DNA of 64,000 nt from Pohlia nutans (lineage: Eukaryota; Streptophyta; Bryopsida; Bryales; Mniaceae). The stretch lies in the NCBI GenBank assembly GCA_022496805.1, contig CM040091.1:24294336-24358335 (forward strand), in the 5' to 3' direction. A program made the position numbers and the translations under genes. The notes beneath the pieces were generated by a model that made no database searches, was not told the DNA's origin, and saw only the letters and a list, made by a program, of their open reading frames with translations. This document shows, one piece after another, positions 18,300 to 61,945 of this stretch. Numbering within the stretch: position 1 is the stretch's first letter; every line of letters begins with the position of its first letter.

Positions 18300-18869
18300 C
18301 AAGAGGGCTAGAAGTTTGGTAGCCAATGGTTAATTGACCACTGGAAGGGTGATTTAATTACGAGTGGAACTCGCTTCCAAGCTTTAGCATTCAGAGTGTA
18401 GTTTGACAACCACTCGTCAAATGACCGCTGGAATGGTGTCTTGTTGACAATTCCAAGCTTTAGCATTAAGAGTAGTTTGACAACCGCTCGTCAAATTGAG
18501 TTTGACAACCATTTTAAACTTTAGCATTAAGACTGTATGTTGTTGTCGGGCGCATCACAGATGCATGCGTAGTGAGGGTAATAGCAGCGCAAAAGAACTA
18601 GACAACATGCACTTGATTTGTAGAAATAGTACGAAATAATACTCATATAAGAAATGAGGCAGATATGGCAACATGAAGAATTGCAAGATGACATAGAATT
18701 GCAGATTAGAAGCGTGTTTACTTTTTGGCAATTTCGTTGGATATAGGCTGAACGTACTAATGTAGTATTGGAGACTCTCATGCCAGCCCTCACGTTTTCA
18801 TAAATGCATGGACTGCAAGACGACGGTGTAAGCAGAGGCATGGAATTCAAATGCTACCAGTGGTCAATT
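18300..18869. mobile_element. Element B, left part (interrupted by element A)
   Basis: This is assigned to element B by its palindrome: a diverged full copy at 18323-18344 and the left half of another at 18857-18869, whose right half resumes at 40517. Repeats of TTTAGCATTAAGA(G/C) and TTTGACAACC(A/G)CTCGTCAAAT occur at 18383-18540. No coding sequence and no terminal repeat of B were found, so the left end of B is undefined and its transposase, if any, is missing. Confidence 0.6.
18866..18869. repeat. Target-site duplication of element A (left)
   Basis: AATT directly precedes the left terminal repeat and recurs at 40517-40520 directly after the right one. Removing element A and one AATT restores an uninterrupted element B palindrome (CCAGTGGTC-AATT-GACCAGTG). 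Confidence 0.8.
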
Positions 18870-18896
18870 AAGGCCTTATTCGTTAAAATGAGACAA
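18870..18896 (+). repeat. Element A left terminal inverted repeat
   Basis: 27 bases, identical to the reverse complement of 40490-40516. A sub-terminal inverted copy of its inner part (TCTCATTTTAA) follows at about 18904-18914. Confidence 0.9.
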
Positions 18897-19204
18897 GTTG
18901 TAGTCTCATTTTAATCTTGTCTATATTTAGACGAGAGGAAGGATTCATTAAATTGAGACATTTCAATAAATTGAGACTTTTAAATGCCAAAACACATTTG
19001 AAATTACTATTTTTAGATTCATGGAGTAGGATGCCACAACAATGAACCTTTGAATTATTCCATCTCATTCGAACCTCCATAAAACACAAATACAAAGTAA
19101 TAAATACCATTGCCATACAATAAGCCGGATCTATCCTTCTACATAAAAGAAGTATAAAAAATAATCAGACAATACCAACAGACGTAGTACATTAAAAGAG
19201 GGGG

Positions 19205-19435
19205 GGTAGTGGTGAAAACCACTGCTAGCCACTCTTTCAAATCACTAGTTTAGCTTGTCTCAGGGGATAGGTGGGGCCGGTTGGTTGGTACAACTTTCCT
19301 GCCATAATAACTCACTAGCAGCACCAAGCCATGTGTATCACGCCACTGCTCAAACGAGCCCAATAGGTTTCGAACCCAGACCACATAACTGTGATACAAC
19401 GCTCTTCACCAACCAACCAAAGAACTCATGACTTG
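19205..19435 (-). repeat. tRNA-related (SINE-like) repeat
   Basis: On the minus strand a region starting about 19432 has an A-box-like TTGGTTGGTGAAG and, about 45 bases later, a B-box GGTTCGAAACC (19366-19377 on the plus strand), as in RNA polymerase III promoters of tRNA-derived SINEs. An inverted GGTTGGTTGGT pair brackets it (19277, 19413). There is no clear A-rich tail or target duplication. A decayed tRNA-derived sequence is equally possible. Confidence 0.4.
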
Positions 19436-19868
19436 GCGATAAAAACGTTCACTAAACATACCTTTATACAAAAAAGAATACATCCATCATTACTTTGGTA
19501 CTATTACTGTTACTTTGTTTTGGTTACTATAGTGTCCATCCTCGAAAGGGGAGAGTAGTATTGTTCCAATGTCCCTTTGAATGTCCGGTGGGCATCAGGT
19601 CTTTGACATTATGAACGGACACTCTATTCGCGCCGGCCCATTTTTTGGGTTGGTGTTTCTATCTAATCAACAATCAATACATTGCCAAACTGTTTCAATA
19701 AAATCGATAAAGTATATATATTTAAACACCTGAAAATAAGTAAATGCGAAGTGCATTCATCGCCACACCGTACAAATAAGACATCTTACGTACGTATCAA
19801 CCATTCATCCATCTCAAAAGTCTTGGCCACACCCTAGAACGAGGACAATTACTATACCTATGAATTAC

Positions 19869-22722
19869 TCATCCCTCCGAAATAGATGTGTCATCCCCGG
19901 AGTCAACCGTAAAAGCTTCCACAGATGCCTTGATGATGTCAATTTGTGGCTTTGGAATTGCAACCCTCGGATCAGAAGTTCCTACTCGCATTCGTGGCTT
20001 CCAAGCAGTCATGATACAGTCCGTGCTAGACCACGTTGGGTTTAGGGCTCGATCTTCGCGCCAAACATTGCCCTTTTTTGTGTCCCATCCATCATATGTT
20101 TCCATATTGATGTGTCGCTCTGAAGCAGACGTCCAATATTGAATTTGGATCATATGCAAATGACCTGGATCCGGACTTGGGTTTGTTATTGCTCTAGCAA
20201 GCCAGAATGGCCTTGCGTCACCGTCAGCAGGACGGACTGCAACAAAGTATCCTGCAAACGTATCGCGATTGACACGGAATGAAGCGCGTGGACGATCACG
20301 TTTACGTCCAACAAATGGTGCATCCTCAGCATCCTCTTCTTGCAATGGGCTGTCCCTCCGCATCCGATCAGACTCGTCATGAGTGATCCTTGAACCCGGC
20401 CAAAATCCTTGTTGTAATCTTTCACGTGGCTCCAGTGCAACATCGAGAGCAGTTCTAACACCTTTCCAATAATCTTTTAAAGGATCATTCTTCCGTCTAA
20501 ATTCTCCGGAGAGATCATCCTCTGCCATTCCGTTCCAGTGTGCAATAAACCCATCCAAACCTCTCTTAATCTCATCAAGTGAACGCATCTTTTGGGGAAC
20601 TAGAGGAAGGGGATCACCGCTAGGAACTCTTGGACGCCCGTCTTCAGTTTCAGACCACAAGCGAATTCCGTTGCCATGTTCTGGCAACCAGGTCTTGTCC
20701 GTACACAAATTCTTGTACTCCATCAAAGGCCATCCACTAGAATCCATATAGAACTTGAATTGTTGGGATTTGGAATGACCCGATAAGAAGTCGTCGCCTG
20801 AGCCTAAATAACCATCAACGAAACTCTTGAAATCAGGAACCTCCTCAATAAAATGTGGAATCACAGTGTGTGCTTCACACTCTATGAAGGATTTCATGAG
20901 TCTTGGAACTGTCGGATAGTTATTAGTCTTCAACCTCTCACTCCATTGGCCGAACATGGCATCAATGTCTTCGTGCGTGTATCCCACTATGAGGAAGTTG
21001 ATGTACACTTTGCGGAAAATGCCTTTGTATACCAGGAGTGAACAAAAGGCAAAGACCCATCTTTTCTTATTGTCTCCTGAAGCATTATCCAACTGCAACA
21101 CCAGTACTGGCGGCAAAGATTGCGCCAAGACCAAAACCTCTGGTAGGGGAAGAAGGAAGTCCAAGCAAGACTCCAAACCCTGTAGAACCGCCTTAGTTAA
21201 TGGTGATTGCGTATCCTCCTCCGAGAACAGCTTACGGGAGGAATTCCTCGGTGGTTCTTCAAGATCACGCAAAAGCTTTGCAATTGACCCAATGGTATGG
21301 TTGGAATTTGTAGGAAAGATGTCAAGGCCATAGTGCGCATATCGAACATCTCCATGTCCGTGAGCGATCATTCCCGTAACAGCTACAGGCATCCTCATGA
21401 AAGAGTCAGTAGCTTTGGTCTTGTGCGAAAAGTGTGGGGACGCCGTCTTGGAGTGATCCATTTTATCATGAATGATGGTTAGCATCCTATCAGGGTCATT
21501 TTCGGAAAGGGTACGATTGAAATAGTAAAGTTCCCTATGTGCCCTCTGGGCTCTGAGGTGGTTATCTAATGCCAAGTTCCACTTCTCTTGTGCATATGAT
21601 AGCGGAGTGCACGCGCTCCGCAACTGCTTGTATTTATCACACAAACCACATCGAGAGAAACTATCTCCACGAGCCTTTGGAGCGTATTCTGGAAAAGAAG
21701 CACGCCGAATGTTGCTCAAGCAAGTTGAAGAAATTGGCTGCAAATCAAAAGCAGCATTTGCCTCATTGATGTGTTTCAACTGGTCACTCCAACGAAAAGC
21801 AGACGGCAAAACCATTGCCGGGACCTTCTCGCCTGAAGGGAGCGTTCTGGATTTGTGAGGCATTTTGTCAGCGTCAGAGACTATTAGCGTTCGAAGTGTG
21901 GCAGTAGCTTGGACTGTATGTAGCCGCGGCCTCTTCAACCCCACATTCCCATGCACCTCAGCTTGTTTCCCGCATTTGGCCATATCTCTGTACCTATAAA
22001 AGGTAGCCTTTGAAATCCCGTGAATGGTCCACCAGGCCGTGGGACAAACTTCCCTACCTTTCAAGGTTATCCACTCCTTGCCAGGGACATCTTTGTGGAT
22101 CTGCCTATGCTTCTCAAGAAGACACTTCTTCCGAGCATATACTCCATCGTTCACGTGTAGTTGAGTGCGAATGACTTGGATCTGCCCGTGCGGAAAGGGC
22201 TGCAAGCAATTTCTCTCGCAACATGTGAGGATGGAGACTGCAGTGATTGCTTCGGGAGCTAAGAGAGCCTCTTTCTTGGGGGAGGCGGCAGTCTCCACTC
22301 TCTCACGAAAGGTGTCATAGGAACGTACGCCTTCCCGACCTCTACGATCAAGAGCTTTCATGGCCACCCTATACTTATACGTCTAGTCATGGTCATAGAG
22401 ACTAACGCCATCTAGAATGACATGTCTTATGTCCCAGGAGAGAATGGACCACATCCATCCGGACGGAACTTCATCCTCGCATAAAGACTCCGCAATTTGG
22501 ACGGCAACTCGATCATCACCAAGAGGCTTGTCGTCGTTGTCGAGAACGACAGTCGGATCAACGTTCTGGCACAATGCTTTGGCGACGTCAAAACCTTCAT
22601 TGTTGCGTAGAATGACTGCTTTAAAATACCATTTCGAACGAGGAATCCCGTCGCATACAACGACGTCCGAAGGTAATACAGACACATGCTTAGCGAATTC
22701 AGTAGGTTCATGAGCATCAATT
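19869..22722 (-). pseudogene. DDE-like transposase (DUF7869-type), one in-frame TAG
   Basis: This encodes about 950 residues. The exon begins after a splice acceptor at 22722 (TTTTTGCAG on the minus strand) and runs to the stop at 19869, with one TAG at 22385-22383; the downstream open frame alone is about 830 residues, its first ATG at 22361. Visible order: CCERNC zinc-like cluster and a helix-turn-helix-like STYR-type stretch (ISKATFYRYRDMAKCGK); CGLCDKYKQLR; then an RNase H-like core with IHDKMDH, VLQLDNASGDNKKRWV and VGYTHEDIDAMFGQW, which I read as the three acidic catalytic blocks. The C-terminus (PFWLARAI...IQIQYWTS...YDGWDT) looks like a small chromatin-reader barrel. The core matches my memory of DUF7869 proteins. 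It is the only transposase candidate for element A. Upstream exons are not resolved. Confidence 0.7.
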
Positions 22723-22848
22723 CTGCAAAAAGAAAACCTTTGTCAGTACAGGTGAGCGAGAACCAGTTGTGCGGAAATCTAATAACTATGTGTTTCTTCA
22801 AATTCCGCCGGGCGTGATAACCATATCTCCAGAGACACCGAAGCACCT

Positions 22849-23930
22849 ATCGTCGCGTCGACGACACGAGATTACTGGCTATGGAATTTAAATCTCGCCT
22901 TGAGATATGATCATCCAAAAATAAAAACATTATCGTCATTAGGTCACACTCAGCATCAAAGGGAATCATCTACCCGACGATAAGTACGGGTGATACAGAA
23001 ATTTGTGTTTGCTCAAATAATCACCGTTTGCGGAAAATAATATTCAGAATTTCGAATATAATTCTGACGCACTACGAGATAATGTCGGGTCAATTAGTAG
23101 TTGGAATATATCGTCGGAAAGATAACATTCAGAAGGGAATCGTTGACCTGACGATATGTCTATACGGGTATTCATCGATTTCCGTGAATGCACTTGATTA
23201 TGGCCAGAGGATATACCACTGACAACGGATAATATTGTGATACTAATTAGGCTATCGTGGGGTCGACGAATACATTAAATGTTCAGCTATCACGCTTACT
23301 GGCAGGGTTATCGTTGACCCGACGATAACACAGAGGAAGACGACAAGTTAAACGTAGTGGACATGTTATCGTGGGGTCGACGATAACCTTGAATTATTTA
23401 TTATCATGCTTACGAGTGCAGTAATCGTTGACCCGACGATAACATGATGCACAGCTAGTTAAGTATAAAATATACGTTACAGTTGGACCGACGATAACAA
23501 TGACATTCCGATACACTACAATTATTATATCAATATTATCGTCGGGTCGACGATATGCATCCCCTTATCGTCGGGTCGACGATATGCATCCCCTTATCGT
23601 CGTGTCGACGATATGCATCCCCTTATCATCGGGTCGACGATATGCATCCCCTTATCGTCGGGTCGACAATATGCATCCCCATATCGTCGGGCCGACGATA
23701 TGCATCCCCATATCGTCGGGCCGACGATATGCATCCCCATATCGTCGGGCCGACGATATGCATCCCCTTATCGTCACTACCACGTTCAGTTGTCAGTTAT
23801 CGTCGGGTCGACGATATCCACAAGGAAATTAGTTTAGACACTGTGGTCCACGCGAGACCATCTAACTGACGACAGCCTTAGTAAATAAGAGTTACAAATT
23901 GACCGAAGTGTTATCGTCGACCCGACGATT
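22849..23930. promoter_or_regulatory. Left palindrome cluster of element A
   Basis: Full or near-full copies lie at 22849, 23139, 23253, 23309, 23367, 23423, 23480, then a tandem array from 23537, then 23798 and 23912; half sites lie at 22931 and 22971. The asymmetric 3-bp centre (GGT or ACC) shows that both orientations occur. The cluster lies directly upstream of the divergent transposase gene, so it could control it or nucleate protein binding. Confidence 0.85.
23537..23768 (+). repeat. Tandem array of eight 29-bp units, each one palindrome
   Basis: Units start at 23537, 23566, 23595, 23624, 23653, 23682, 23711 and 23740. Each is the 19-bp palindrome plus TGCATCCCC(T/A). The first five have GGGTCG or GTGTCG centres and CCCCTT links; the later ones have GGGCCG centres and CCCCAT links. 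This shows local amplification after a base change. A degenerate ninth start follows at 23769. The layout is iteron-like. Confidence 0.95.
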
Positions 23931-26130
23931 TCATCCCTTTCATATTTTGAATGTGTTCCGGAATTTCTGGCATAAATATCGGAAACCGGATAGACACTGT
24001 AACGAAATACAACAGCAACTGATCCCGATAGCTCAGTGAATTGTATCAGCAATCATGAACATCAAATGATGTGAATGTGATAACTGCAAGAAGGGCGCTA
24101 AAGACTACAAAGAGGGGTACCCGAAGGATTCCATCCGATCTTTGCGAAGAAACCAGCGCTGTGTAGAAGTAGGACCAAAAACCTTGGCAAACACAGAGCA
24201 AGCATACACCGTGCGGATCTAAGATGAGCAGTAGAGAGTCAAGAAGAACCTAGCAACACGACTGTGCAAAAAGAGGAGAATGTCGACGTCGAGACTAAGC
24301 ACATCCTTCAGGAACGTTTGGGCGGGAAATGAAATAGGGCGCAAATTCTGAATTTCAAATTCCTTGGAATCTTTGGCGCGAATAAACATTGAATGCTGAC
24401 ATTCCCTGTCAGCGCGGGACTACCGATTTCTATGTGTCTTTTGACAGATTCTTCACCAAAAGATCCGGGTGTAATAAAGCAGACCGAAAAGGTTTTGTCC
24501 GGATATAGTTTAATTCGACAACGGTGTTATTTTCTGCTTTTCGTCACGGGAATTATGCTTTTGGTTGACTTCTGCATGGGATTCCATAAATTATCTTCAC
24601 TATTTAAAGCCTTAATTTCACAAATTCGTTGACCTTCTCCGCGTCCATTCGTTAGAGTTAGGGCAGAGGGCATGAAGTTAGGTTTTAGGGGTCAGGATAG
24701 GCTTTAGGGTGAAAACGGACATTACTATTCAGGAGATATGATAGGAGTCAATTTTTGGATTTTAGAGTTTAGATTCTTGACTTTAGGGTTTAGAGATTCT
24801 CATTGAACATATACATATATTATATTATATAACTCGAATATATGTATTAAAGTGATATATTGTCTTGGTATGCTACATAGGTAAATTAGTGTTAGATGCA
24901 CTAATTTACACAAACATGTTTTAAGTGTTTACTGTTGACCAATTTTTTTACCCTTTATATTAGTGAAGATGATGATTCCAAGTGCAGAATTTCATATGTC
25001 AAATGAAGTTTGATTTAATAAACAAAATGTAGTGCACAATTCTACATATTTTCGTTACATTAAAACTTTAAAATGTAACTTTAAGAAAATCTATTAAAGT
25101 ATTTTTTAGATTTAACCTTTGAAAATTTATATAAATTATAATTTTCACTTTTAGTAATAATGATTAGTATTTAGTATGATTTAAATGTTTATTATGATTG
25201 ATAACATTTGTTTTGTCCACTGTAAACTTGAAGAAGGCAAGTTGAATATTGAAAGGTAGATTAGTAGTTTCTCGAAAATAATCTCAAAGTCACTTAACTT
25301 TAAGACAATGTTAAATTAGTTTACCTTGGAACAATCTCCTGAGTTTAGTTGAACTCTTTATCATTGAGAGAATTGAAAGTGGTTTGAAAAATACATTCGA
25401 TTTAATATTTTAAAATAATATCACTTACATTTCTTTTTCTTTTTTTAAATCTAGACAATCTATTACATTTTGATAGCGACAATAACTGAGCGTTACGAGG
25501 TTTGTAGGTTTTGATAAGACGATAAGGGCCCTGTGTGAGGTGGATAACCTTCTAAATAAACGAACTTCTCAATGGCTTCATGACTTCGAGGAAATTTGGC
25601 CATTTTCATTACAAACGTGTTTAATCATGTCGATTCCTCCACAAGACCCAAGATTATAGGTCACAAGACCCGAGTGTAAAATTCACACTGTAGCATATAA
25701 ATAATGATGATTATAAGTGTTAAGAAATATTAATTATGGATTTTTGCTAATTGTAAAAGATTATGTTATTACATAAAATATCAATAAAATTTCTAATTAC
25801 ATCACAAGTATTAGGTAATTCATGTAGAAGGCTTTGATTGTCACTTCATGTCAACATGAGGGCTCATAATTTTCATTGTCTCTCTATTTAATTTGGTTCA
25901 TAGTTTTTACACAGTCTGATGCCCCTACTGTCATCTTCAGTTCAAGTTGTTGCAATAAAAGATTTTATGCTGGATATTAAACTATCAACGTTCCAAGTGA
26001 CTCTTTTCAGGAGACATATGCAGTGTGAGTCGCTCTTGAGGGTCTCATTGTAAGGAGGGAGGATGTTTAACTTGGAGCCCTACATCTAAAATTCTTGGAT
26101 CAAAAAGCTCTTACGTCGTTCGACAAAGAC

Positions 26131-26370
26131 TCACCAGATATAAGAAACGAGTAGCTCACTATGAACATGAATGAGCACATCACGCAGCATTGATGAACCC
26201 CGCAATATAGAGTGACACGCAAGAGGAGTTGCTGCAGCGTGTCTTTGCACGTGTTTAATCGAATTGATCTTTGATAGGCTAGCTAACTTTTCAACAAAAT
26301 TCGGAACAAGCAATGCGAGCTCTGCAAATCTGATTTTACTTAACGTATGCCTACTAGAATGAAATTGCAA
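26131..26370 (-). other. Possible gene fragment, 79 codons
   Basis: The minus-strand frame reads like coding sequence (FAELALLVPNFVEKLASL, then RHAAATPLACHSILRGSS), slightly ankyrin-like in its TPLACHSIL segment. It has no flanking exons that I can join. It may be a captured host exon or chance. Confidence 0.2.
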
Positions 26371-27903
26371 TTCTCCAGGCTCTTTTTTCAGGCTTTAAGA
26401 AACCTGGAATTCATTTAAAAAGCTCGGTGACTGGGCTATTCGAGTAGTTGAGGTACAGAATTAAGCAGTCATTTCAAGCTAGTAAACTCAATGGTAAGTG
26501 AACTAAATAGTCATAACGATCAAGTGATCTCAACAGCTGTGATTGAACTCAGCACAGTCAGCAGTCATATCATGTATTAGCAGTTAGTATTTCTATACTT
26601 ATTAATATTATATTGTAGTGCAGGACTTTACTAAGTTTGAATTTATTTTTCATGAATGGTGTATCCAGTCTCCTCCACTTTATAGTTGAAACGAAGTTAG
26701 GGCCATTTTACTTTAGTAGACAATACTTTTCAGTTTGTCAAATGCCAATTAAAGAGATGATGACCTCGTTATTTTATCTAATAGTGGACAACGAGAGGGT
26801 TGTAATCAAAATACCTTTGATGCTTCTCTACGTCGCTGGGCTTCTACATATCTTTATAACCATGGTGAGCGTACTTGCAGCTCACCGATAAGGATTTTAT
26901 TAATGTAGTTGTTAAAGACCAATAAGCGGTGATGTTTTAATTTTGTCATAGTTTGCCAGAAACATTTATTGTATAACATATAATTGTATACTGAAAGCGA
27001 AACTTTAAATGAGACATACATAACGTAAAAAATATTGATGATAATACAAAGGTTTAAAATTACTCAAGATTTGAGGCTCATAAAACTATATTTAATTTCT
27101 CTAAACTGTATTTAATAGTACTTCTATGTAATTAATTTAAATAATAACTATATTGAATTAATTGTAAGTTTTCTCTATTACATATATTTTATTGACTATA
27201 CAATATTATATATTTTATCCATTTATAATTATAACAGTAACATTGTAATTCATTAATAATCACTAATGTCATTACAACATTAATAATGGCAGTAATTAAA
27301 TTTCATTTGAATGTTATTTACAGGTTAAGAATATTACCTATAATTTATATTAATTTTTGCTTGACATCAATGTTCTCAAACATTTCACTTATTTACACTA
27401 CTTACACGAAGTAAGAAGTGAAATGGATGATTATGATAGTAAAGTCACGCAAAAATTGTTATGAAAGTCACTAGTTCACATGGTAGAAAATACTAATTAC
27501 TAGTAGCAGAAAGAGTGACTTGCCGGTTTATGAGTACAGTACGTTGGCTTAACTGCAACTTGATCGGAGCTCACTGGTCTGCGAACGAGACTACAGTATG
27601 ACGAAAGTCTGCCTCTCCGATGTAAGTTTGGGCTTCTTGATCTTTCTCTCTAGGTAGACGTCCTGGGTCTGTAGCTAAGCTTCTAGTGATCATCAGAATT
27701 GGAACCTGATGTGTTTATTTTTAAGAAGTTGTGAGCAGGTTATATGCGGTCTTTTCACTTGTTTAATTTTCTTTCCGTTTTAGAGCCACACATGCAATGT
27801 TCTTCTAGTGATGTACAGTACAGTTTTCAATTGTGTTTTCCATATTATGATCAATTGGACTGTGTCTTAAATTTTTTTTTGGATTTGCAAGACATAGGCG
27901 GAG

Positions 27904-28119
27904 ATGGAGTCGTCTGAACAAATGGAAGATAGGCTTCAAATTACATCTCTGACAGAGTCTTCTAAGAGAAAGTATCAACTTCACGTGAAAATCAATGAAG
28001 AGCAGACATACTCCGTGAACTCTGTATCCACGTCTAGCATGCAACTAGGTGACCAACTCGTGATTCACAAACAGCCAGGTTATGACACTGTAAAGCGTTG
28101 CAAAATTAACTTTGGGTAA
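27904..28119 (+). other. Possible captured exon, 71 codons
   Basis: ATG follows a pyrimidine-rich stretch and the frame (MESSEQMEDRLQITSLTESS...) ends at a GGGTAAG that could be a splice donor. It is compositionally coding-like but matches no domain that I know. It may be an exon fragment carried in the middle of element A. Confidence 0.25.
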
Positions 28120-28339
28120 GATTAGGGCTTCCAGCCTTTTGTTTTCTTGATGTCACTGTGAAAGTGTGAACCGGGATATGTTATGTAAGTACGTAAAAGA
28201 ACTCGTGCAATCAAACTTTTTTTTCTTTTTGATTAGACTTTGAATTTTTGAATTCCTATTGAACAAGCTATCGTGATTACCTTACATTCCATAGACCTCA
28301 TTCCTACATCATGTTTTGATTCTAATTGGATATTGATCA

Positions 28340-28605
28340 TACAGTGTCTCTAAATTTAATATCTATTTTAATAGATACTTAACTTTAGTATCTATTTTAA
28401 TATTTATTTCATGTAGTATCTATTTTAATATCTATGTTAATAGATATTTAAATGTAGTATCTATTTTAATATATATTTTAATATATAATTAAATTTAGAA
28501 TCTATTTTGATAGATACTACAATTTAATATCTATTTTAATAGAAAATTATATGTAGTATCAATTTTAATAGATACTTAACTTTAATAGTCATGCCAATAT
28601 ATATT
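28340..28605. repeat. AT-rich minisatellite
   Basis: Irregular tandem units of AGTATCTATTTTAATA with interspersed AGATACTTAA(C/A)TTT, about 16-35 bp each, fill this interval. Confidence 0.8.
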
Positions 28606-29251
28606 TAAATCTGGCATGATATAGTATTATGTTCATAGGATCAGTTACCTTGCTGATAAGCCGAGCGGAGAGCCGAAATGGGAAAGCAGGTTTCAGGTTT
28701 TAGATAGTTTAAGCTGCGATTTGGTATATCAAGTCCAAAATATTCTTCTACAAGTACTTTAGGATGATTTTTTAAGAATCGTTAATTTTCGTAACACTGA
28801 GAAACGTTTAGGAATGAGCTTGACATTCACATATTTTGTATTTTGTTAACCCCTAAATATCCTCACCTTTGTCAAATTTGGGCAGTTTCGCAAAGATGCA
28901 TAATAAAATACAAGTAATATGAATATTTGAAACTTGATGCATGAATAAAAGTTATACATTTCAAAATTTAGATTCAATTTATACGGTAAGATCTATGATT
29001 GCTATAACTAATATTTTTCTATAATTTTTGGAACATAAAATAAAAAAATTATTTTGTGATTAGATTATGGATAAGATATTGACAATATGGGGATGAAATT
29101 TTTTGTAGTGGCTTATAATGTAGTACAGACTCTAGGTGTAGTGATTTTTCGAGATTTTTTGGATGCTTGATTTCAATTATGAGTTTCTTTTTTGAAAAAC
29201 ACTTTTATATACTAAAATTTTTAGAATTTTACGTGAAACACTACTACACAA

Positions 29252-29580
29252 ATGAGGCATAAATTTTTCAAGAATTGTTTCCCTCTACGATTGGATCACA
29301 CATACATGAAGCTACCTTCCCATTAAAAAATCAATAAAAACATCACTGTACAAAAAGTGCATGAAGAATAAGAAATTGCAGATGAAACTTTTACATCATG
29401 CAAAACATGCATGGTTGGGCAGTTAGGGGTTAACTCCTAAACATCCCAGCGTCTAAAACCAAAATCATGAACAGATTTTAAGCCCTGAAATTGTCTCGTA
29501 CAATCTAAAATCAGCATCATCCAAGTCACCTTTTCAAGCATATTAAATCTTCTACTAATTAGAGTAAATATATCGTTAAA
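29252..29580 (+). repeat. Dispersed repeat R, copy 2
   Basis: It starts AAATGAGGCATAAATTTTTC and ends TCTACTAATTAGAGTAAAT. It is collinear with copy 3 at 29951, except that copy 3 contains about 80 extra bases (GAATTTTCGTAACGCTC...) that match 28778-28860. Confidence 0.8.
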
Positions 29581-29950
29581 TATCTGCAGCTGCACTTTTC
29601 TATATCAATTCTAAAAAAACAGGATAAAAGAAAAAGAAAAGATAAAGATAAAGATAAAAGATAAAGATAAAGATAGAAAATAAAATAAAAAATTGTTTCT
29701 TTACAATGAAGAGATTGTAGATAGAAAAAAATCCTTGTTTTTTACAGATATTTTCAAACAAATTTTTTTAAAGCCAAGTTTGCTCATGAAATGAGTGCAC
29801 TTGGCCAAGTGCAAAATTAGGGAATTGGGTGTTTTAGGGTATTTTTAGGCTCGGCCCACCCAAGGTAGCGAGCCGAGCTTCGTAGGTGTACTTCAAAGCC
29901 GACCCTATAAACCAAGCCGGTTCCCGGAGCCAAGCGTAGGAGCCTAGAAA

Positions 29951-30334
29951 AAAATGAGGCATAATTTTTTCGAAAATTATTTCCTTTTCGATTGGATCAC
30001 ACATACATGAAGCTTACTTCCCATAATAAATTCTGTAAAAAAATCAAACCAAAGAAAGTGCATGACGAAAAAGATACTACGGATGAAATCTGTACATCAT
30101 GCAAAATATGGAGGGTTGGGCAATTACGGGTGAATTTTCGTAACGCTCACAAGTATATAGGAATGAACTTGACATTCAAATATTTTGTATTTTGTTAACT
30201 CCTAAACATTTCAGCGTCTAGAAACAAAATCTTGAACAGATTTCAAGCCCCGTAATTGTCCCGTACAATCTAAAATCAGTATCATCCAAGTCACCGTTGC
30301 AAGCCTATTAAATCTTCTACTAATTAGAGTAAAT
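29951..30334 (+). repeat. Dispersed repeat R, copy 3
   Basis: Diverged copy of 29252-29580, with the extra internal segment shared with 28778-28860. It ends at the same TCTACTAATTAGAGTAAAT. Confidence 0.8.
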
Positions 30335-32830: not shown

Positions 32831-32964
32831 ACTAAGACAATTCAATATTGATCTCTAACAGTTGACCTCTAACAATTGTTCCTGAACCATGCCACAGATT
32901 GTATAGAATGGCAGACGAAGACACTTATGACTACTCCGCCACCGCACCTCACCTTTAACCGTTC

Positions 32965-37571: not shown

Positions 37572-37943
37572 TTCTAAGTTGCTTGGAGTCTTTCATTTTT
37601 GTGTCGGGGTGGGAACGGCTAGAATATATCCTGTAGTAATCGTTTCTCATCTGTATTCATCGTTCTTGACAGGATGTCATCACCGGTTCTTGAATACCTG
37701 GCGCTGACGGCCATCCCATCTGTGGCTGCCATCGTTGTACTCTAGTGTATCATAGTGTTCGGAGTAGTTTTGAGTCCAGACTTGAGTACAGACTTATGTT
37801 AATTATACGGATGTAATATTTTGACTTTGTAAATAAAGAGTTCGGAAGTTATACATATTTGAGCACCTGTCTAATTGTCTTTGCCTCTCAATGTGCATGT
37901 TGCTCAGCTCCCAAACAATATTTGCGTGCACCGTCCGCTACCA
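37572..37943. other. Spacer between the ParB-like and phosphatase genes
   Basis: Non-coding. It contains AATAAAGAG near 37840, a possible polyadenylation signal of the upstream gene. The first 85 bases are conserved in the decayed fragment that ends at 5277. Confidence 0.5.
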
Positions 37944-38902
37944 ATGGAAGCAGTCTCCAATGGGAGACCGCAGTCGCTTAAGACATCAGATTGCTCCTAT
38001 CCAGTCTCTGGCTCCCCCATTTCTGCGCTAAAACAGGTAACTCCATCTCTTTGTTGTGATGTTTTGATCAGGTAGAATGCAAGGGTGGCAGCGAGATCGT
38101 GCGGACGTCTGTGCCTCCCGTACTACCACCGCCGCGTAGGAAGTGGCTGAACATTGTCTTCGACTTGAATGGCATTCTCTGTCATACGGCGTAGAAGTCG
38201 TCCGGAGAAAAATTTAGCCCGTATCAACTGCAAGACAATGTTCTCAGCCAGAGAAATCCCACCATCATCGGTCCCAAGGCTGTCCATGCTAGGCAGAACA
38301 TAGCTGAATTCCTCCGCGAGGTATCGTCCCTCGCGGACAGGGTTTTAGTTTGGACCTCCATGTTCAAGCGTAACGCTGAACCCATCGCGGGGCACCTCTT
38401 TAGGGGTTGTAAGGGGCCGTACGATATCTTGAGCCAGGATCAGTGCTCGAAGATAGAGGTCTCGCCGGGGAGGTTCTTTCAAATCGGCATTGCGGTGCTG
38501 TGTATGAAAGTCCTCTCCGAGCACCTGTTCACCAATGTTAGCGGCGACACGTCCTTTTCCCCGGACAATACTCTTCTCATTGACGACTCTCCAGCCAAGA
38601 GCATCTGCAATGAGAATGGGAACGCTATATTCCTCCGCACTTGGAACCAACACGAACGGCAGGACGACGTCCACATGGGGGAGCTGCTGCCGTGGCTGCG
38701 CCGTCTTGACTCAAACTGCCACCCGGGTCAGATGCGCAGATACGTGGAGGAGAATAGAATCGGCCTGAATCCTTTGCGACCCAGTGACTACCACGTGAAG
38801 GACATCATTAACGGCATGAGAGAGTCGTCCAAGAACATGGGGTCCCGATACAGGCTCCCTGGGATAGGCGTAGTCATAGAGGGAGGACGTGTTATAGAGT
38901 AG
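37944..38902 (+). pseudogene. FCP1/NIF-like HAD phosphatase, one in-frame TAG
   Basis: The body reads from 38072 to 38902. The HAD motif I region is WLNIVFDLNGILCHT, where the usual DxDGT/DxDxT has Asn in place of the second Asp; motif III is NTLLIDDSPAKS. Between them lie VLVWTSMFKRNA and DILSQDQC, in the expected order for an FCP1/small-CTD-phosphatase-like domain (RNA polymerase II CTD phosphatase family). A TAG lies just after motif I (about 38193). A 5' piece (37944-38036, ATG then ...ISALKQ) would join across a 35-bp GT-AG interval, too short for a normal plant intron, so this part is uncertain. The Asn in motif I suggests reduced or absent catalysis. Downstream of the ParB-like gene, same strand. 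Confidence 0.65.
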
Positions 38903-39147
38903 ACCCTCCGGACGTTGGGTTTTTATGACGATAATAACGTTCCATTGATTGTACTAATTCCTATTGATTGCGTCTGCTATGTACATTTGTAATTTCCATA
39001 TGTCACCGCGTTCTCACTCCATTTTGCGTTACCATTTGTTATGCCGTCGATGGTCCATGCGTGTTCCCCCTTCTCCATTCCAGGCTGTTTTGCTCTTGTT
39101 CTTCGTCCGGTAACGTGGGATTGTGGTATATATCTTTGTACTGCAGA

Positions 39148-40028
39148 ATGGATGCAATCGCGTTGTTGGACCGCAAAATCGGCTTACCAGAAGTTTCCTC
39201 TCCGGATCCGAATCCGACGGGGGGAGTTGCGACACGGCTCCATTTTCAAGACCTTACCTGTTGCGGTCTGCCCAAACTGCTACGTCCGCGGCCATAGACT
39301 ACTCGAAGGGTGACGTTGAGGCGGGCGTTGTGAACAGCCCCCCGGACCACGGACCCGTCAAGACTCCGGCCAAATCCCCGTCTCCGTTGAAGCAGGCAAC
39401 GCCGAGTCGAGGGGATTGCTTCTCGCCTGAGCGGCGGACGGACTCCCCGACGAATCGCAAGCTGATCCTCCCCTTCGATGGCGCGCCCGGGCAACCTCGC
39501 CTCGATGATGCGATTCCGACTCCGTCTGCTGTTCCTGTTGTTGTCACGGATGGATTAATGGCCACAGTGGCCTCGGACACTCGAACGAGGACGCTGAGGT
39601 CGAAGGCCACTTTTAGCGATACGGTGCTTCTGTTGAGGGATGGGCATCCTCGTCCCGCACAATCTACTGGAGCTAGGCGAGCCCCTTCCGCAGAAGGTCT
39701 CGTAAAGAAACGTATCCTCATCGAGCCCTCCTGTTCTCTACTGCCCAAATCCACTTCGACCCAACTTCCGCACACAAAGGCCCTCGCTCCGACGATGACA
39801 AAGCCGCCCCTTCGAGGGTCTAGATCGCATTCCGCGTCTCAGGCCCGGGAAACCACTCGAAGGTCAAAACGAAAAGCCACCGAAGCTCATAGCCTAAGCG
39901 TATTCGATGCCTGGGCGGCTAACCCTAATTCCAACTACAGTGAACGACAAAAGGTTATCTTGAGAGGACTGGCCAAGCTCAAAGCGGAAGAGGCGGCGAA
40001 AGTCGTTTTCGCGAAATCAGTCAAGTAG
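39148..40028 (+). CDS. Basic, Ser/Pro-rich disordered protein of element A
   Basis: A frame of about 290 codons ends at 40028. It is Ser/Pro/Arg/Lys-rich with KKRI and RRSKRKA patches and a short C-terminal helix-rich segment (FDAWAANPNSNYSERQKVIL). A start at the ATG 39148, just after a TACTGCAG acceptor, gives a natural N-terminus (MDAIALLDRKIGLPEV) but in another frame that stops at 39297, so a frameshift or intron is needed to join it to the main frame. Probably nuclear and nucleic-acid-binding by composition only. It is the last gene before the right terminal repeat. No counterpart was found in element B. Confidence 0.45.
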
Positions 40029-40489
40029 TGTCTACGCAAGCCTATAAATCCAAATCATATTCGTGATGTCTTTAGCTTATAGATGAGTTTACTATAAATA
40101 GATATCGTAAATAGTCGTACATATATTCCTTTGGATCTCACTGCCTCTTGTGGAAGAGAATGCAGCCTAAATTCCACTATTTGTTTTACTTCCATATTAA
40201 ATTCACTCCGGAGAATTCTACCACAGTATATAGTATTCACACACTGTTAAATAAAAGGCGTTCTCTTTTTTGACCAAGTATTCTTATACTTCTAGTCCTG
40301 TTTACGAATCACTTTGTCACTTCATGTTATGTATGGATGTTACTGGAGTGCCTTGTTATGTCCATTGTATCAAATTCTACACAATTTTTGATCGGTGTTC
40401 AATGTACGAGCTCAACATATCATGGGGTTCAACAACTATTCCGTCACTAGAATTTTGTTTCACTTTTTGAAGGTCTCAAAATGAGCATT
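40029..40489. other. Subterminal non-coding region of element A (right)
   Basis: AT-rich, no genes and no palindrome copies. An inner inverted relative of the terminal repeat (CTCAAAATGAGCATTTTG) lies at 40474-40491. Confidence 0.6.
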
Positions 40490-40516
40490 TTGTCTCATTT
40501 TAACGAATAAGGCCTT
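40490..40516 (-). repeat. Element A right terminal inverted repeat
   Basis: Reverse complement of 18870-18896 over all 27 bases, followed by the AATT target duplication at 40517-40520. Confidence 0.9.
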
Positions 40517-41599
40517 AATTGACCAGTGAAATGCTAAGTCTTAGTTGGTGAGTACCGCAACCCAGTGGTCAATTGACCAACGGCTTACTATCCTCCATCA
40601 GTTGTTTTCAATCCTAATAATCGGTTGGCTAGTCAGTTTGAAAGCCAGTGGTCAATTGACCAGTGGTGTGGTATCCTCCATCTGTGCTCATGAGTCCCGC
40701 ACATTTGGATCTGCAAGTCATGGGTAAGAATACAACGGACCCTGTGGCTCATGTCCCGTATGCTGGAGTATTCAAGAAATTGTTCGAGCCCATCTTGGAT
40801 GTCAACATTTGTGGAGACAGCAATGGACGAAAGAAATATTGGCCAAAGCGATGCCTCACCGCACCTCGCCAATGGTACCTCGAAGTTGTCAAGCAAGGAA
40901 ATCCTGTCAAATTTGGTCTTATGGTGGTTGTGAATGGTGCGATCGCTCCAGCCCGTGACATCGCTTTTGCCACCCTCGCAAACCTCGTAGTCATGGACAT
41001 CAAGTACTTTAAGCCATACCTAATTCTATGGGTTGCAAACAACTCCGGGAGCGTGGCTAACCTTTATTTTACGGAAGGAGAGGATAAGTTCCAAGCAAGA
41101 CCCTTCACAAATAGCCTTAGTGAGCATGAGGGTGACCTTAAGGGAGATGGATATGACACCATCCTAACTGACAAGGCTATTTCCTTCCTGAACACAGACA
41201 ACATGAAGGTGAGTTGAGTGCTCAAGTCCGTGATGACTCTTCTAAACAAGGTCACATCTAAGCAATTTAGGAATGAAGGGGTACATGAGAAAACCCGCTC
41301 TAAAAAACGGCCTCAGCCGGCTCCAGTGTCATGTAGTCTTGCTCCTAGCCGTGCCAAATCAAAGAAGGGCAAGCAACCAGTGAAAGAGAAGGAAGTGCAA
41401 GAAGCACGGACCGAGGCGGTGGACATGGAGACATCACCTGTCGAAGAGAATGCCGCAGAGCCTGAGTCACCAGAAGAGCCGAACGTGGTCAGTTCGGAGG
41501 GTACAGAACTCCATGAAGTTGGCGAGGGTGACAACAACCCCAAAGTAATTGGCTCTGTTGCCGGTAGTCAATTGACCACTGGCAGCGATATAGAAGATA

Positions 41600-43295
41600 T
41601 GGTAGAGGGGAAAAAAGGTGCTGATCTAGTAGTCCTCTACCTACCGGTAGAGAAGATGGACACCAAAAGACTACATTGAAAAACACTCACAAACTCCATG
41701 TGTTCTCACACCAGGAGGTCTCACTTATATAAGAAGAAGATACAATGGAAAGATCCAAGATCTGGATCTGGATCTGGCTATTGACTCGTGGCTACCTGGT
41801 CGGTTACCTAGTCGACTACCAGGTCGGTTACCTAGTTGACTACCAGGTCGGTTACCTAGTCGACTACCAGGCCGGTTACCTAATCGACTACCAGGTCGGT
41901 TACCTAGTCGACTACCAGGCCGGTTACCTAGTCGACTACCAGGCCGGTTACCTAGTCGGCTCCCGGGTCGACTACCGAGTAGACTAGCCTCTGGTGCTAC
42001 CGAATTGACTACTGACTGGGAGGAGATAAATCCCGTTAACATCATCCTCCCTCCAAAGGCGTTACGCCCTCGTAAACGCCATACACAACTAAGACATTAG
42101 CTTACAGATTCTACAATTAGTTAAAAGTGGCCGCCATTTGGTAGAATTTCTTGTTGGGAACCTTCCTTCAAAAGTCTTGCTGCCACTTGAAAGCATCCTC
42201 GCCATTCGGTATTCACCCCTCTAAATCTGACTCAGTTACTCCTTCTGGGTTCTTCATGAGTCCAATGGGAGTCCTATACTCCTTCTGATGGTAGTCACTT
42301 CACCACTGGAAGTACTGGGTTCAGTAGGTAGTTACTTTAGGGCCGTCCGAACGATTGACCTCCAGCTTGCAGTTACTCTCCATCTGGTGTTGCCGGGTCG
42401 ACTACCTAGGCGACTACCGGGTCGACTACCTAGTAGACTACCGGGTCGACTACCGAGTCGACTAGCCTTTGGGAAATCTCCATCCGGTGTTTTCTCCTCC
42501 AACTCTTTAACTTCAATAGAAATCTGCAAACTTATATACTTCTACTAGAGAAAAACATTTGAACACTTGGATTGGTAGTGGTTGGACAGAATCGGTAGTG
42601 ACAGACTGTACTGGACTGTACTAGACAGGGTCGGTAGAGCAGACTATGGCTTTAAAATAGACTAGAGTCACAACATTTCTACACTTTAGTTTTAGTTCTT
42701 CAGATTTGGCTCTTTCTCTTAGCTTTTTGGTATCTTGCTTCTATGGCTCACCTCATCTAAGTTCATCAAAGCATCAAACTTTCACTAAAATCTTCAAGAG
42801 TGTCGCTCTAGCTCTAGATCTAGATCTCTTTTGAAGAGCTACCAATCTTCCAAAACAACAACCTATAGATCCAAGATGATAAGAAAGAGCACAAGAAACA
42901 TCACATTGCAACAAGAATCACTTTACAAACAAGAGATTAGAGTACGAAACACTAGATGGTCGCCAAATGGTAGAGGGGGAAAAAGGTGCTGATCTAGTAG
43001 TCCTCTACCTACCGGTAGAGAAGATGGACACCAAAAGACTACATTGAAAAACACTCACAAACTCCATGTGTTCTCACACCAGGAGGTCTCACTTATATAA
43101 GAAGAAGATACAATGGAAAGATCCAAGATCTGGATCTAGATCTAGATCTGGATCTGGATCTGGCTACTGACTCGTGGCTACCTGGTCGGTTACCTAGTCG
43201 ACTACCAGGCCGGTTACCTAGTCGACTACCGAGTAGACTAGCCTCTGGTGCTACCGAATTGACTACTGACTGGGAGGAGATAAATCCCGTTAACA
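41600..43295 (-). mobile_element. Non-autonomous LTR retroelement (TRIM-like) in a B intron
   Basis: LTRs at 41600-42041 (442 bp) and 42968-43295 (328 bp) read TG...CA and are flanked by AGATA/AGACA, a 5-bp target duplication with one change. On the minus strand the element starts TGTTAACGGG. A primer-binding-site-like TTTGGCGACCATCTAGTG follows the 5' LTR (42950-42967), and a purine-rich GGAGGGAGGATGA precedes the 3' LTR (42042-42054). The 926-bp interior has no gene. TATA-like TTATATAA lies in each LTR (about 41725, 43093). The LTRs differ mainly by the number of copies of a 24-bp repeat. Confidence 0.85.
41796..41985. repeat. 24-bp tandem repeat with palindrome TAGTCGACTA in an LTR
   Basis: About seven units of GGTTACCTAGTCGACTACCA with a GGTC/GGCC link are present. 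The other LTR holds only one to two units, and a related array of GGGTCGACTACC(T/G)AG lies inside the element at 42395-42468. In a minus-strand LTR this falls in U3, so it may act as a repeated enhancer or binding site. Confidence 0.85.
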
Positions 43296-44094
43296 AGACA
43301 TGGTTGCAGGATCGCCTCGACCAGCCAAACGTCGGCGAAAGCAGACGACGACAGTGAGGTTCTCCGGTACGCCAGTTCTCGAGGATGCGATTCAGATACC
43401 AATCGAGAACTTGGAGAAAGAATCCAACGCATCGGCAACACTTACTGCAGCCAGCCAATCTAAAAGACGACAAAAGGAACGTCAATATCAGCACCCAGTG
43501 AAAACGGCGGAGGGGTAGGACATAGACTTTGACGACTGTCGAGAAGAGCTAAAGCAATTTAAGAACAGAAGTGCGCCAATGTACATATGGGGGCAAGACT
43601 TCACGAAAGAGATCGACGTGGATCAAATGATCAATGCACCAATAGAATTTAAGTACCGCCCATTCCATGAAACATGTTGCAAGAATCTGTTTGAGATTTA
43701 TTTGACTGGGATACACCCGCCCAAGCAGACCTTGACTCTCATGCCCAAGGTAGACAAGAAGCCATGCTACTTCGATAATGTAAAAGATGGAGAATTTTAC
43801 ATTATCAATGGGCAACATTATGTGGCGGCTGCAAATAAATTGTTGGCTCTTGATTGAGTTGATCCCGAGCGCCAGAAAACGTACAAGACTTGGCAGTGTG
43901 ACTTCGTGTAGACCGAGAATAAGATGCTGCTGTCAGAGCTGTCACGGCGCACAAATAACACCAATCAACACAAGTGGGATTCGCCGGAGTATCTTCTGCA
44001 CGTGAAGTATTGCCGAGATCTGTAGATCACCTATGGGAGACCAGATCCAAAGAACCCCGGCAAACCAAGGTCTGAAGCGAGGAAGATCTTCAAG

Positions 44095-44219
44095 GTGCGC
44101 TGGCATGGTACAATTGAATACTAGCATTGTGCCATCTATTCATCTCAACTTTTCATTATCAGATTGCATGTCACTTGAACCAGTGGTCAATTGACTACTG
44201 GCACGATGGAGTTTTGCAG
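44095..44219 (+). other. Element B intron 2 with palindrome
   Basis: The donor is AAG|GTGCGC and the acceptor is TTTTGCAG|G, phase 0 on both sides. The palindrome is at 44180-44201 (one mismatch in the right arm). It is equivalent in position to element A intron 1, which carries the A palindrome. Confidence 0.75.
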
Positions 44220-45604
44220 GAATTTCAAGAAAAAGCAGTGGAGACTTTGAACGCTATGACTTTCAAGAATGCCAACAAGACCGCCATGGAGTACCACGGC
44301 AGGGTGAGTTCTTGGTCATTTGTGGATCGGACGACTTGTACAATGGCATCCACAACGCATTTGAGTGGTATGAGACAGGCGACCTCCTGAACTCCGACAC
44401 TGGAAGAAAAATGAAGGTCAACTGCAAAGACAAGTGGGTTCGAAAACTGACCAAGGCATTCGCATTCAAGTGTTTGCGTGGCTTAGGGACTAACTCACTC
44501 CTCGAGCTGGTGCAGAAAATTACTGCCGGCTTGACAGTCAAAGGGGAGCTACTGAAGGAAGACAATGCAGTTCCCAAAGTGTATTTGGGGAGTACTCGGC
44601 CGAGAAGCAAACACTGCTGTAGCTTGAAGGACTGGACGGACAGAAAAAAGGTGAAAAATTCCATCATGCGTTGGCTCAATAAGAAGTCGCCCCAGAGTAT
44701 CTGGGTCAACGACGACGTAGATCGAGTGACTTGGGGCAAATTCAAACGCAAGCATGGGTTCAACTCAGCCCACATGGACGAGTTCATCAAGCGAGCGACA
44801 AAACTCTTCTTGTTGAGGTCCTTGAAAGTAAGCGACAATCCTAGAAGAGCGCAAGAGCCCCCCTCGGATGCATTCTTGGCGGAGATGGAGAGAATTTTGG
44901 AGAAAGAGCACGTCTTGAACTCCAACATAACTCCGGTACTGAGCAAGATCCTGGCAGACGGGACACTCTCAAGATTTGCAAAATTTCCAAAGCGTCATCT
45001 TGTACCCGGCGCGATGATGAATTTAACCGACCCTTCTGTATGGTGCATTGTTAATTCAGAAGATCTTAATTTTGATGCGGCCATCATGGATTTGCGTGCA
45101 ATCGACAGATGGCTAGAGCGCGACGATTTGAGTATTGATCGGTGTTACCAGTTCATTCTTTCCAAGATGCTGAACCGGAGCCGCTATGGCAGGTGGCCAC
45201 CGCATTGGCTGGTAATTCGCCACTGCACAAATGAGAATGAGACCCTTCAGGCGGTGGATGGGCATTTGAAGGGGTATTCGCATATGGAGAGCCGATATGT
45301 GCCAGCGGCAGCAGAGACGTACTTCTTCTCCTCCCGAATCATGAAAAAAGGTAAGGGTGTCACCATCTTCTACTTCTGGAATCTTGAGATGGCAAATGCC
45401 ATAAATTGGAAGAATGAAGTTCGTACATCGGAGTCGACAAAGCGTGTGGGATCTGTAAGGGAGGTCGACTTGCTTGACGACGAACTTAGGATGGAGGTGT
45501 ACATGCATTTCCTCATGCAACTTCCACACATTGATCATGAGACCAAAGACCCACGAACTGTGCTATGTGTGGCTGTCGGGCTGAAGTGCATGATCGCGGC
45601 CATG

Positions 45605-45717
45605 GTACGCTCGTTTGCTCTTGCCAGTAGTCAATTGACCACTGGCATCGTCTATAGTTATCAGCCACTGGATCTCACCATTATTGACAATTGCTAACCT
45701 TCTAAGGTGATGTGCAG
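45605..45717 (+). other. Element B intron 3 with palindrome
   Basis: The donor is ATG|GTACGC and the acceptor is GTGCAG|ATG, phase 0 on both sides. The palindrome is at 45624-45645 (one mismatch). It is equivalent to element A intron 2 (AAG|GTACAC...GTGCAG|ATG); the splice sites are conserved but the palindromes are different sequences. Confidence 0.85.
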
Positions 45718-46596
45718 ATGTTTGATCTCCGACCCGTCACCGTGGGTATACCGGAGGATAACTTCCGAGTGTTGGTCAGCAGTCACCAACTCGGCTACCA
45801 ACTCCAGAATTTTGAGCACATCTTTCACACGTCCTTGCACACATTGGATGAGCCAAAGAAATATGGCTCGTGGTTTTCATTGAAGCCTAGTAGGCCATCC
45901 GAAGAACCACATAGTTCGGGTGTCCAGCGACGGGAACTCTAGTCCAAGAAATGTGCAGACCGGAGTAAGACTGTTATAAACATAGAGGACGTGGTATTTG
46001 GCGCAAGCGGCGTAGAATCTGGCGACGACCGTGACGGTGACCGTAGTGATGAAGGGGTAGGGACCGAAGGGGAGTGGCCAAATTCTGTCAGGAAACGCAA
46101 ACGGTTTCTGTCGTCCCAGGACAGCGACGCGGATGAGCCTTCCGGAACTGCCTTGCAGTTTGATAATGAAGAGGGAATGAATGATGCCACGGGCCCAACA
46201 GTTGCAGCTGCAGCGAGCATTGGAGACGACGCCATTGAGACGAGGGCCGAGACTCTGACCAAAGCAAAAGATGTAGAGGCCTTGGCAAGAGGCAATGACA
46301 TGAACGTCGAGAATCCCTATCACCTTTCGCCTCCAGTGGCTGCACCAGCGCAAACTATAGAGCAGTGTATTCCAGTACCGCTAACTCCGTGCAGCCCTCC
46401 CTTGTAAGCAAGTGGCGATCATGGTTTGCCTCAACCCTTGAGCCCGGTTGTTCATTCTAGGAATATGAAAGAAGCAATGGCCTTTATTGGGGAATATGTT
46501 GAGGACCTCACACTTGGGCCTCCTCCCCCTACAGATTCGAGGGTCCGCAAACTCTCGCCACTTACACTTGGAGAGCCTCGATGTGATGCACAACCG

Positions 46597-47283
46597 CCAG
46601 TAGTCAATTGCCCACTGGTCAATGTTGAGCAAAAGAAGTTGCCAGTGGATGCGTGCGACGGAGTCGACAGCGACTCTGTTCATGGTGTCGCCGAACCTGA
46701 CCTCGATTTGGTTCTTCAATGCAATGTGTCTCCACCTAAAGAGCTGACTAGTGGTAGTGACGAAATTCCAGTAGTCAATTGCCCACCGTGTGAGAGAATT
46801 TATCTGAGAATAAAGGTGTTTGAGATGTGGATAGTGAAGACAGTATCCGTGCCTATGAATTTTACAGTGATTTGGAAATCCATCATGATGAGAGTGCACC
46901 TCTAGCAGACATCGAGGATGGACTGGAAACTGATTCCGGAGCAGCGGGCAATTGCGCAGAGGTTAATTCCGCCCAACAGTTCGCGGTTTCGCATGGAGTT
47001 CGAGTGCACGAGGCACGCATGGCCCCAGTGCATATCTATGAAACACCTCCTTCACCTGCAACAGATGTCGTCTTGGTCTGCACTTCTTATGTAGTGCCAC
47101 TAGTCAATTGCCCACTGGCAACCATTGAGGAAGTCTCCGTTCCCCAAAAGAGTTTTCCTTCACAAGGTGTGGACGATGCACGCATGGCCCTTGTGGAAAT
47201 CCATGATTCATCAACGGCCGCTGAGACAGAAGACATGTTGGAGTTCACTCCGTCTCTGGAACCAGTGGTCAATTGCCCACTAG
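46597..47283. promoter_or_regulatory. Four in-frame exonic element B palindromes
   Basis: Copies at 46597, 46768, 47097 and 47262 are all in the phase CCA-GTR-GTC-AAT-TGC-CCA (47097 has CTA as second codon). All four have TTGCCC where the non-coding copies have TTGACC or TTGACT. In this phase the unaltered palindrome would place TGA in the frame. Confidence 0.9.
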
Positions 47284-48300
47284 TTACCATCGAAAACGAC
47301 GCTGCTGCAGATGAGAGACTTGTGCTTGCTGTGGTTCCGGGTTCGACTTCTGAGGCTTCTACTGTGCCTCTACCACAAGCCCTTGCCATTCCATCTCTGT
47401 TGATCGTAAAGAAGGAGGTCACGGAGGTCTCCGTGCCTTCTAATAAGGATAACCCATCGAGATTGACAGCGGCTCTGATGATAATGCGTACAGAGCATCC
47501 TTGTGAAATTTCCCATCCGATGTGGAGTCCGACCTGTCAAATAGAACCAAAGACGTGGAGTCAACCGACGGATCAGAGCAGAAGGTCTCTCAAAGAAGAC
47601 CTTTGAGAATACAACTGGAGACCGTCTTGAAGAAGAAGTTGATCGTGAATCGAGCTGCAGTGCGAGCGAGCCGAGAGCTGGAAATGCAAAACAAGATATT
47701 GAAGTTGGAGTTGCAGAAGGTCCGTGAGGAAGCAAGGCTGAGGGAATTGAAGTTGGAGGAGGCAATTCGTATGAGTCAGGTAGTGAGTGCGGGTGAGTTC
47801 ACAGACTCCCCTTCCACGCACATAACCCATCAAACAACCTCGATTGCATCAGCACGAGAAATTTTGGACCATGAGGTGGAGATTTCTAAAGGTCCCGTAC
47901 AAGACTGTATTCCGGCCACAAGGAACAGATTTCCCTCGATGATTTAAAAGTTCTGCTAGATGTTGTATGCTATATTCAAGAAAGTCGTGAAATGTTGACC
48001 ACGCCTACTGGTAATCGCAGGAATGTGATGTTATTGAGCAGCGTGCAGCCATGGAAGCAGCAATGACAAACAAGGTTAGTGTACTGTCGTATTATTGCAT
48101 TGAAGTTGTTTCTGATTAGTGGATGTGAGCGTCATTTTTGAATGAAATGGTGCCCGGTCTGTACAGGAAAATTGAGTCTCTTCGTAGGGCGCATCGAGTT
48201 GAAGATTCGGACACCACAAAGACTTCAGTTGTAGATTATTATGTTGACTAGGCCGCTTCCACCATAATCTATTGTACACTAGACAATTAAATTTTTTTTC

Positions 48301-61901: not shown

Positions 61902-61945
61902 CACTAGCATAGATGGGTGCTTTTATGACTGGGAGAATGACTGCG

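Follow-up and report, generated by a model that had tools for sequence, protein, structure and literature searches.

Nested elements in a moss genome with ParB-like genes and private palindromes

Two nested elements and their palindromes

We analysed a window of 64,000 nucleotides from the moss Pohlia nutans (assembly GCA_022496805.1, contig CM040091.1, positions 24,294,336 to 24,358,335, forward strand; positions below are those of the window). It holds two nested elements, A and B, each with a ParB-like gene and each with a palindrome of its own. Element A, a DNA transposon that ends in terminal inverted repeats and is flanked by a duplicated 4-bp target, interrupts element B, whose parts lie on either side of 18870-40516. 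The ends of B were not found, and its 3' flank enters another repeat at about 48464. The features are given below. Exon and intron limits are those of a model built from the sequence, and the boundaries of A are defined by its inverted repeats together with the AATT duplication.

Element A:
18866..18869, plus strand: target duplication AATT left of A, the centre of a B-type palindrome
18870..40516: element A, 21.6 kb, with ends AAGGCCTTATTCG...CGAATAAGGCCTT that recur in many copies
18870..18896, plus strand: left terminal inverted repeat, from the end sequence and genome copies
19869..22382, minus strand: DUF7869 open reading frame (ORF), likely transposase (PF25273, E 3.4e-43)
22848..23930: 18 A palindromes upstream of the DUF7869 ORF, some of them in a tandem array with 29-bp units
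31917..32830: eight A palindromes upstream of the ParB-like gene
32965..34139, plus strand: first exon of the ParB-like gene, coding for a PH-like N-terminus and a portion of the ParB domain, with estimated start and splice site
34144..34162: A palindrome in intron 1
34229..35562, plus strand: exon 2, methyltransferase-fold half, residues 239-444
35578..35656: two A palindromes in intron 2
35724..37571, plus strand: acidic tail exon, 135 D+E and 53 K+R in 615 aa
37017..37317: three A palindromes in the coding tail (peptides DRQPDD, DRRLDD, DRRVND)
38195..38902, plus strand: NIF-like phosphatase ORF, a conserved accessory gene of A (PF03031, E 3.9e-9)
39114..40028, plus strand: ORF with no function assigned
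40490..40516, minus strand: right terminal inverted repeat, from the end sequence and genome copies
40517..40520, plus strand: target duplication AATT right of A

Element B:
18323..18431: two B palindromes left of A, with 2 and 4 mismatches
40562..40666: two B palindromes upstream of the B gene
40660..44105, plus strand: exon 1 region, with in-frame stops, an inserted repeat and the INGQH motif near 43804
41561: B palindrome in the exon-1 region
44180..44201: B palindrome in intron 1
44220..45605, plus strand: exon 2, a homologue of exon 2 in A
45624..45645: B palindrome in intron 2
46597..47283: four B palindromes in the tail exon (peptides PVVNCPL, PVVNCPP, PLVNCPL)

The A palindrome, TATCGTCGNNNCGACGATA, has 35 matches in the window at up to 3 mismatches, where shuffles lead one to expect 0.15. 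Inside A there are 32 of these, three are in an A-like fragment at 4637-4937, and none is in B. They lie upstream of the DUF7869 ORF (18) and of the ParB-like gene (8), in intron 1 (1), intron 2 (2) and the tail exon (3), with none in exons 1 and 2 or the phosphatase region. The B palindrome, CCAGTGGTCAATTGACCACTGG, has 11 sites at up to 5 mismatches within 18323-47283, two to the left of A (18323 and 18410), nine to the right and none inside A. Four are upstream of the gene, four are in the tail exon, and the exon-1 region and introns 1 and 2 have one each. The initial annotation described the two sets as private to their elements and as lying upstream of genes, within homologous introns and in the acidic-tail exons of both genes, and the counts agree on both points. 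It was right that A has many copies, which number about 32 and not 25, and right on the nine B sites to the right; to the left there are two instead of one.

The ends of A recur across the genome, with 67 matches to the left end and 40 to the right (40 candidates scored for each). Ten other copies were read on both flanks; in nine the two copies of the 4-bp duplication are identical, and in the tenth they differ by one base. Eight of these copies are 19.8-23.6 kb long, one is 10.3 kb and one 44.8 kb, and some other end pairs are more widely spaced, fitting nested insertions. A duplication of TTAA rather than AATT is ruled out by the limit of the sequence common to the copies and by their flanks. 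The window copy splits a further B-type site at 18857/40517. A preference of A for B-type palindromes as targets was considered and rejected, since by eye none of the other 10 targets shows one; the insertion into this site is thus put down to chance. A copy at another locus (L095) has 20 sites at the place matching the 22848..23930 cluster. The tail-exon fragment at 3437-5188, whose protein is 76-81% identical to the A tail and which has three A palindromes, is what remains of another A-family element.

We consider DUF7869 the likely transposase of A. There are 1934 DUF7869 (PF25273) candidates in the genome, of which 150 were scored. Of 56 matches, 41 have a match to A exon 2 within 45 kb and 15 do not. 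The 41 pairs, two of which are pieces of one ORF, are all on opposite strands and divergent, and 35 are spaced 10-20 kb. In the 12 pairs with an exon 2 at 61-67% identity to that of A, identity of the DUF7869 protein is 80-89%; the ParB-like protein thus evolves faster. No DUF7869 was found in 14 control genomes, and beside B-lineage genes none was seen, by eye, among the best 150 of the 1934 candidates. DUF7869 is an abundant protein family here, probably of transposons. The ORF has three matches among PDB sequences, all with E > 1, and a literature search on DUF7869 found no paper. Among 20 long A-lineage loci, the phosphatase ORF is present in 16 and sequence like the 39114..40028 ORF in 15, most loci stopping inside that ORF.

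The B gene in the window carries in-frame stops, and a repeat is inserted into its exon-1 region at 41599-43300, with direct repeats at 41599-41784 and 42967-43152 (97%) and 24-bp tandem units. Beyond B, 48464-50000 is the start of a different repeat, common in the genome. Most of 47600-50000 is found at 13 places, the window included. Nine of these are no more than about 0.6 Mb from the end of a contig, possibly through subtelomeric duplication of B copies.

Sites and gene lineages across the genome

At least 95 places in the genome match A exon 2, itself included (100 to 56% identity), and at least 99 match B exon 2 (100 to 41% identity), where some matches are parts of a single gene. We read 28 of the former and 32 of the latter for sites. 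The exact A palindrome occurs 1279 times, its reversed control never, and of the first 50 places listed, all on contig C1, 47 have a match to A exon 2 at most 20 kb away, where about 1% would be expected. At least two exact copies of the A-arm palindrome are found in 18 of 20 long A-lineage loci, the other two having mismatched sites, and eight loci at 56-70% identity have the palindrome at up to 3 mismatches. Intron 2 has it in 27 of 27 A-lineage loci tested (62 sites at up to 2 mismatches, none in 200 shuffles; locus L029 is excluded from this count, its intron sites having 3 mismatches), and the intron sequence surrounding the sites is divergent between A clades.

In the B lineage the site changes, and both halves change together. 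A CCAGTGNNCAATTGNNCACTGG-like site is present in intron 2 of 28 of the 32 B-related loci, equalled by no shuffle. There are three classes, with GTC, GGC or TGC before AATT, and the two halves carry the same dinucleotide in 27 of the 28 sites. The dinucleotide is GT in nine B loci, GG in nine clade-C loci (one asymmetric), and TG in four clade-D and six clade-E loci, where the clade-E sites have 2-3 mismatches; the clades are our own groupings by match length and intron flanks. Peptides from the start of exon 3, with the site excluded, have nearest neighbours of the same class in 25 of the 26 loci with at least 18 residues, and the sole mismatch (L066) is taken to be a peptide in the wrong frame. 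In intron 1, read afterwards in one locus per clade, clade C has an exact GG site and clade E a TG left half with an altered right half. In the loci read, the palindrome goes with the gene lineage, which supports part of the interpretation given in the initial annotation.

The CAATTG form occurs 352 times in the genome and its reversed control not at all. A B-type variant site, CCAGTGGTCAATTGCCCACTGG, is part of a satellite that runs from C4:43455701 to at least 43486469 (at least 31 kb). Its copies are 277 bp apart, or a multiple of that, and a B-lineage gene lies nearby at C4:43448600.

For A, variation of the site was sought in 136 related database proteins, several of which extend into introns. 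In these, 60 peptides fit the A palindrome when both arms carry matched changes at position 5 (variants G, C and T; examples RRVDD, PRVED and IFDSK). The 50 shuffles gave 6.3 on average and at most 12, in a coarse test that ignores relatedness. Unmatched changes only are fitted by 17 peptides. The 60 include 15 IVAST peptides from close relatives, 13 of the weak SSxR[RG] type and three in a conserved domain, which leaves 29.

The encoded protein and its proposed role

The A and B genes are homologous, as first annotated (exon 2 against exon 2, 22% identity, E 6e-10). The structure prediction which that annotation had proposed for the INGQH region gave a ParB N-domain fold, with ParB, Noc and KorB as the top PDB structure matches. 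One gene model has the ParB-type and DNA methyltransferase domains in its exons 1 and 2, and we predict a protein made of a ParB clamp domain and a DNA-methyltransferase domain of the beta class whose catalytic motifs are degenerate. Since searches of Pfam, NCBIfam and PDB sequences (PDB: P0002 only) found neither domain, their detection depends on predicted folds. DPPY is the catalytic motif of beta-class DNA N6-adenine methyltransferases. At its place, as judged from the fold match, lies D-x-R with no proline between (of 32 aligned proteins, 31 have the D, 31 the R and 30 the two together), and the acidic residue of the glycine motif is retained in one of 27. The methylation chemistry is predicted to be lost.

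We think it rather probable that the ParB-pseudo-methyltransferase of A binds its own palindrome as a dimer, labels the element as self and maintains its transcription or protects it from silencing, and that the protein of B does likewise. The protein is the likely binder because the palindromes surround its gene, because a ParB clamp is predicted, and because the sites are upstream of both genes and not at the ends. Palindromes bound to lineages, with halves that change together, are the trace expected of a dimeric DNA-binding protein. In A, the DUF7869 gene diverges from the ParB-like gene, and the dimer would bind upstream of both as well as in the introns and tail exon of its own gene. The bound protein would then identify the element as self and sustain its transcription or its escape from silencing, as VANC does for VANDAL by its own means. 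Spreading from the sites, as in ParB, is possibly involved. B would act alike through another palindrome, so that each lineage would control only itself. By analogy with VANC, the likely role is element-specific regulation or anti-silencing. A bolder form of the proposal is a code like that of ParB and parS, in which the clamp loads at a private palindrome, spreads and shields the element from silencing, while lineages split by matched changes of 1-2 bases per half-site and of the protein, giving many mutually blind systems in one genome. This we put forward tentatively, as possible but on balance doubtful.

Several observations weigh against the binding proposal. In this genome the A palindrome stays constant while protein identity falls from 97 to 56%, which leaves the database peptides as the only indication of coupled change inside the A lineage. 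The initial annotation expected relatives to carry element-specific palindromes, which holds for 28 of 32 B-related loci and for A intron 2 (27 of 27) but not for the four B-related loci of clade F, which have none in intron 2. The one clade-D locus read has no palindrome in intron 1, and the CAATTG search pattern was derived from the same loci after they had been read. The Foldseek matches of the ParB model all fall short of E 0.001. GERR is the phosphate motif of CTPase ParB; here NGQHS replaces it (N, G, Q, H and S in 42, 40, 41, 42 and 39 of 42 sequences), which makes CTP binding and spreading doubtful, and CTP-driven spreading from the sites is a possible, though weakened, model. Both window genes look damaged. 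The A gene lacks about 65 residues of the ParB domain, a segment which all 35 other A-lineage loci longer than 4 kb (31 distinct places) hold at least in part.

Other functions of the palindromes were weighed. Subterminal repeats in other DNA transposons are bound by transposition proteins, and the sites here could similarly serve a transposase or cofactor in excision and insertion. We give this little credence, as the outermost 3.9 kb on the left and 3.1 kb on the right of A have no site at up to 3 mismatches, and sites are placed in introns and the coding tail. The transcript has sites in introns 1 and 2 and the tail exon, and perfect inverted repeats could fold in RNA, so hairpins might act in splicing or autoregulation of the ParB-like gene; the largest cluster (18) is however upstream of the DUF7869 ORF and probably untranscribed, and a B-type site is present in the satellite too, which makes this explanation improbable as well. 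It is very unlikely that the palindromes are functionless hitchhiking repeats, multiplied within each element and identical through recent descent. The A sites are partly a 29-bp tandem array and the copies do share descent, but intron-2 sites recur although the remaining intron diverges between A clades, sites lie within coding exons, and the halves change jointly.

An active DNA methyltransferase could also mark its own element at the palindromes. The fold is predicted to be that of a methyltransferase, and passages of PMC12477816 predict that the Ectocarpus protein makes N4-methylcytosine or N6-methyladenine and propose that such algal proteins modify their own transposon. With DPPY replaced by D-x-R and the acidic residue of the glycine motif nearly always lost, we regard activity of this kind as unlikely, and we favour binding of the palindromes by a catalytically degenerate protein.

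Elsewhere in the window, one repeat is found twice, at 5655-9700 and 58165-62000, about 52.5 kb apart (blocks 93-98% identical, outer limits approximate). A DYW-type PPR ORF at 50381-54196 has about 7.5 copies of a 303-bp (101-codon) unit with 94% matches.

Comparison with known systems

The Sola superfamily makes a 4-bp target duplication. Passages of PMC12477816 describe ParB-like plus DNA-methyltransferase accessory proteins in Sola1-1_Ec32 and other algal transposons. A is like Sola in its 4-bp target duplication, its giant size and a ParB-type accessory gene as in Sola1-1_Ec32, and DUF7869 is the only transposase candidate identified in A. In the algal proteins, according to the same passages, both domains are in one gene, as here by predicted fold, and the accessory gene is on the strand opposite to the transposase of a giant transposon, as here (41 of 41 pairs; 21.6 kb) if DUF7869 is the transposase. 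The moss elements differ in their land-plant host, the replaced catalytic motifs of the methyltransferase and the private palindromes. Those passages name no binding sites of the algal proteins, and the string 'palindrom' has no hits in the main text of PMC12477816.

The bacterial ParB-parS system is similar in its ParB fold (predicted here) and in dispersed palindromic sites near the gene. It differs in that GERR is changed here and there is no sign of partitioning. That role, suggested by the initial annotation, is without support, as no ParA was found among the eight ORFs of A and B scanned against Pfam, the ends of B not being located.

We know of no ParB or methyltransferase domain in VANC of the Arabidopsis VANDAL transposons. 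In passages of PMC5735166 and PMC10398659, VANC is like the moss protein in being transposon-encoded with lineage-specific target motifs, dispersed and in tandem, in noncoding sequence including introns. The same passages report that VANC targets diverge between related elements, as the palindromes do here, and that the VANC21 motif, the 9-base YAGTATTAY, is non-palindromic, unlike the sites here. Anti-silencing is demonstrated for VANC in these sources (PMC5735166, PMC10398659), and is suggested here by analogy.

Within the literature searched, the following are new: a land-plant host, palindromes private to each element, the matched change of their halves, and degenerate catalytic motifs. 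The genome holds dozens of copies from several lineages, and most of them have a candidate site, so that specificity and its switching are directly testable. If the proposed binding is true, these elements would be a second, independent case beside VANC of transposon self-recognition through short private motifs, and their natural protein-site pairs could be used as programmable chromatin tools.

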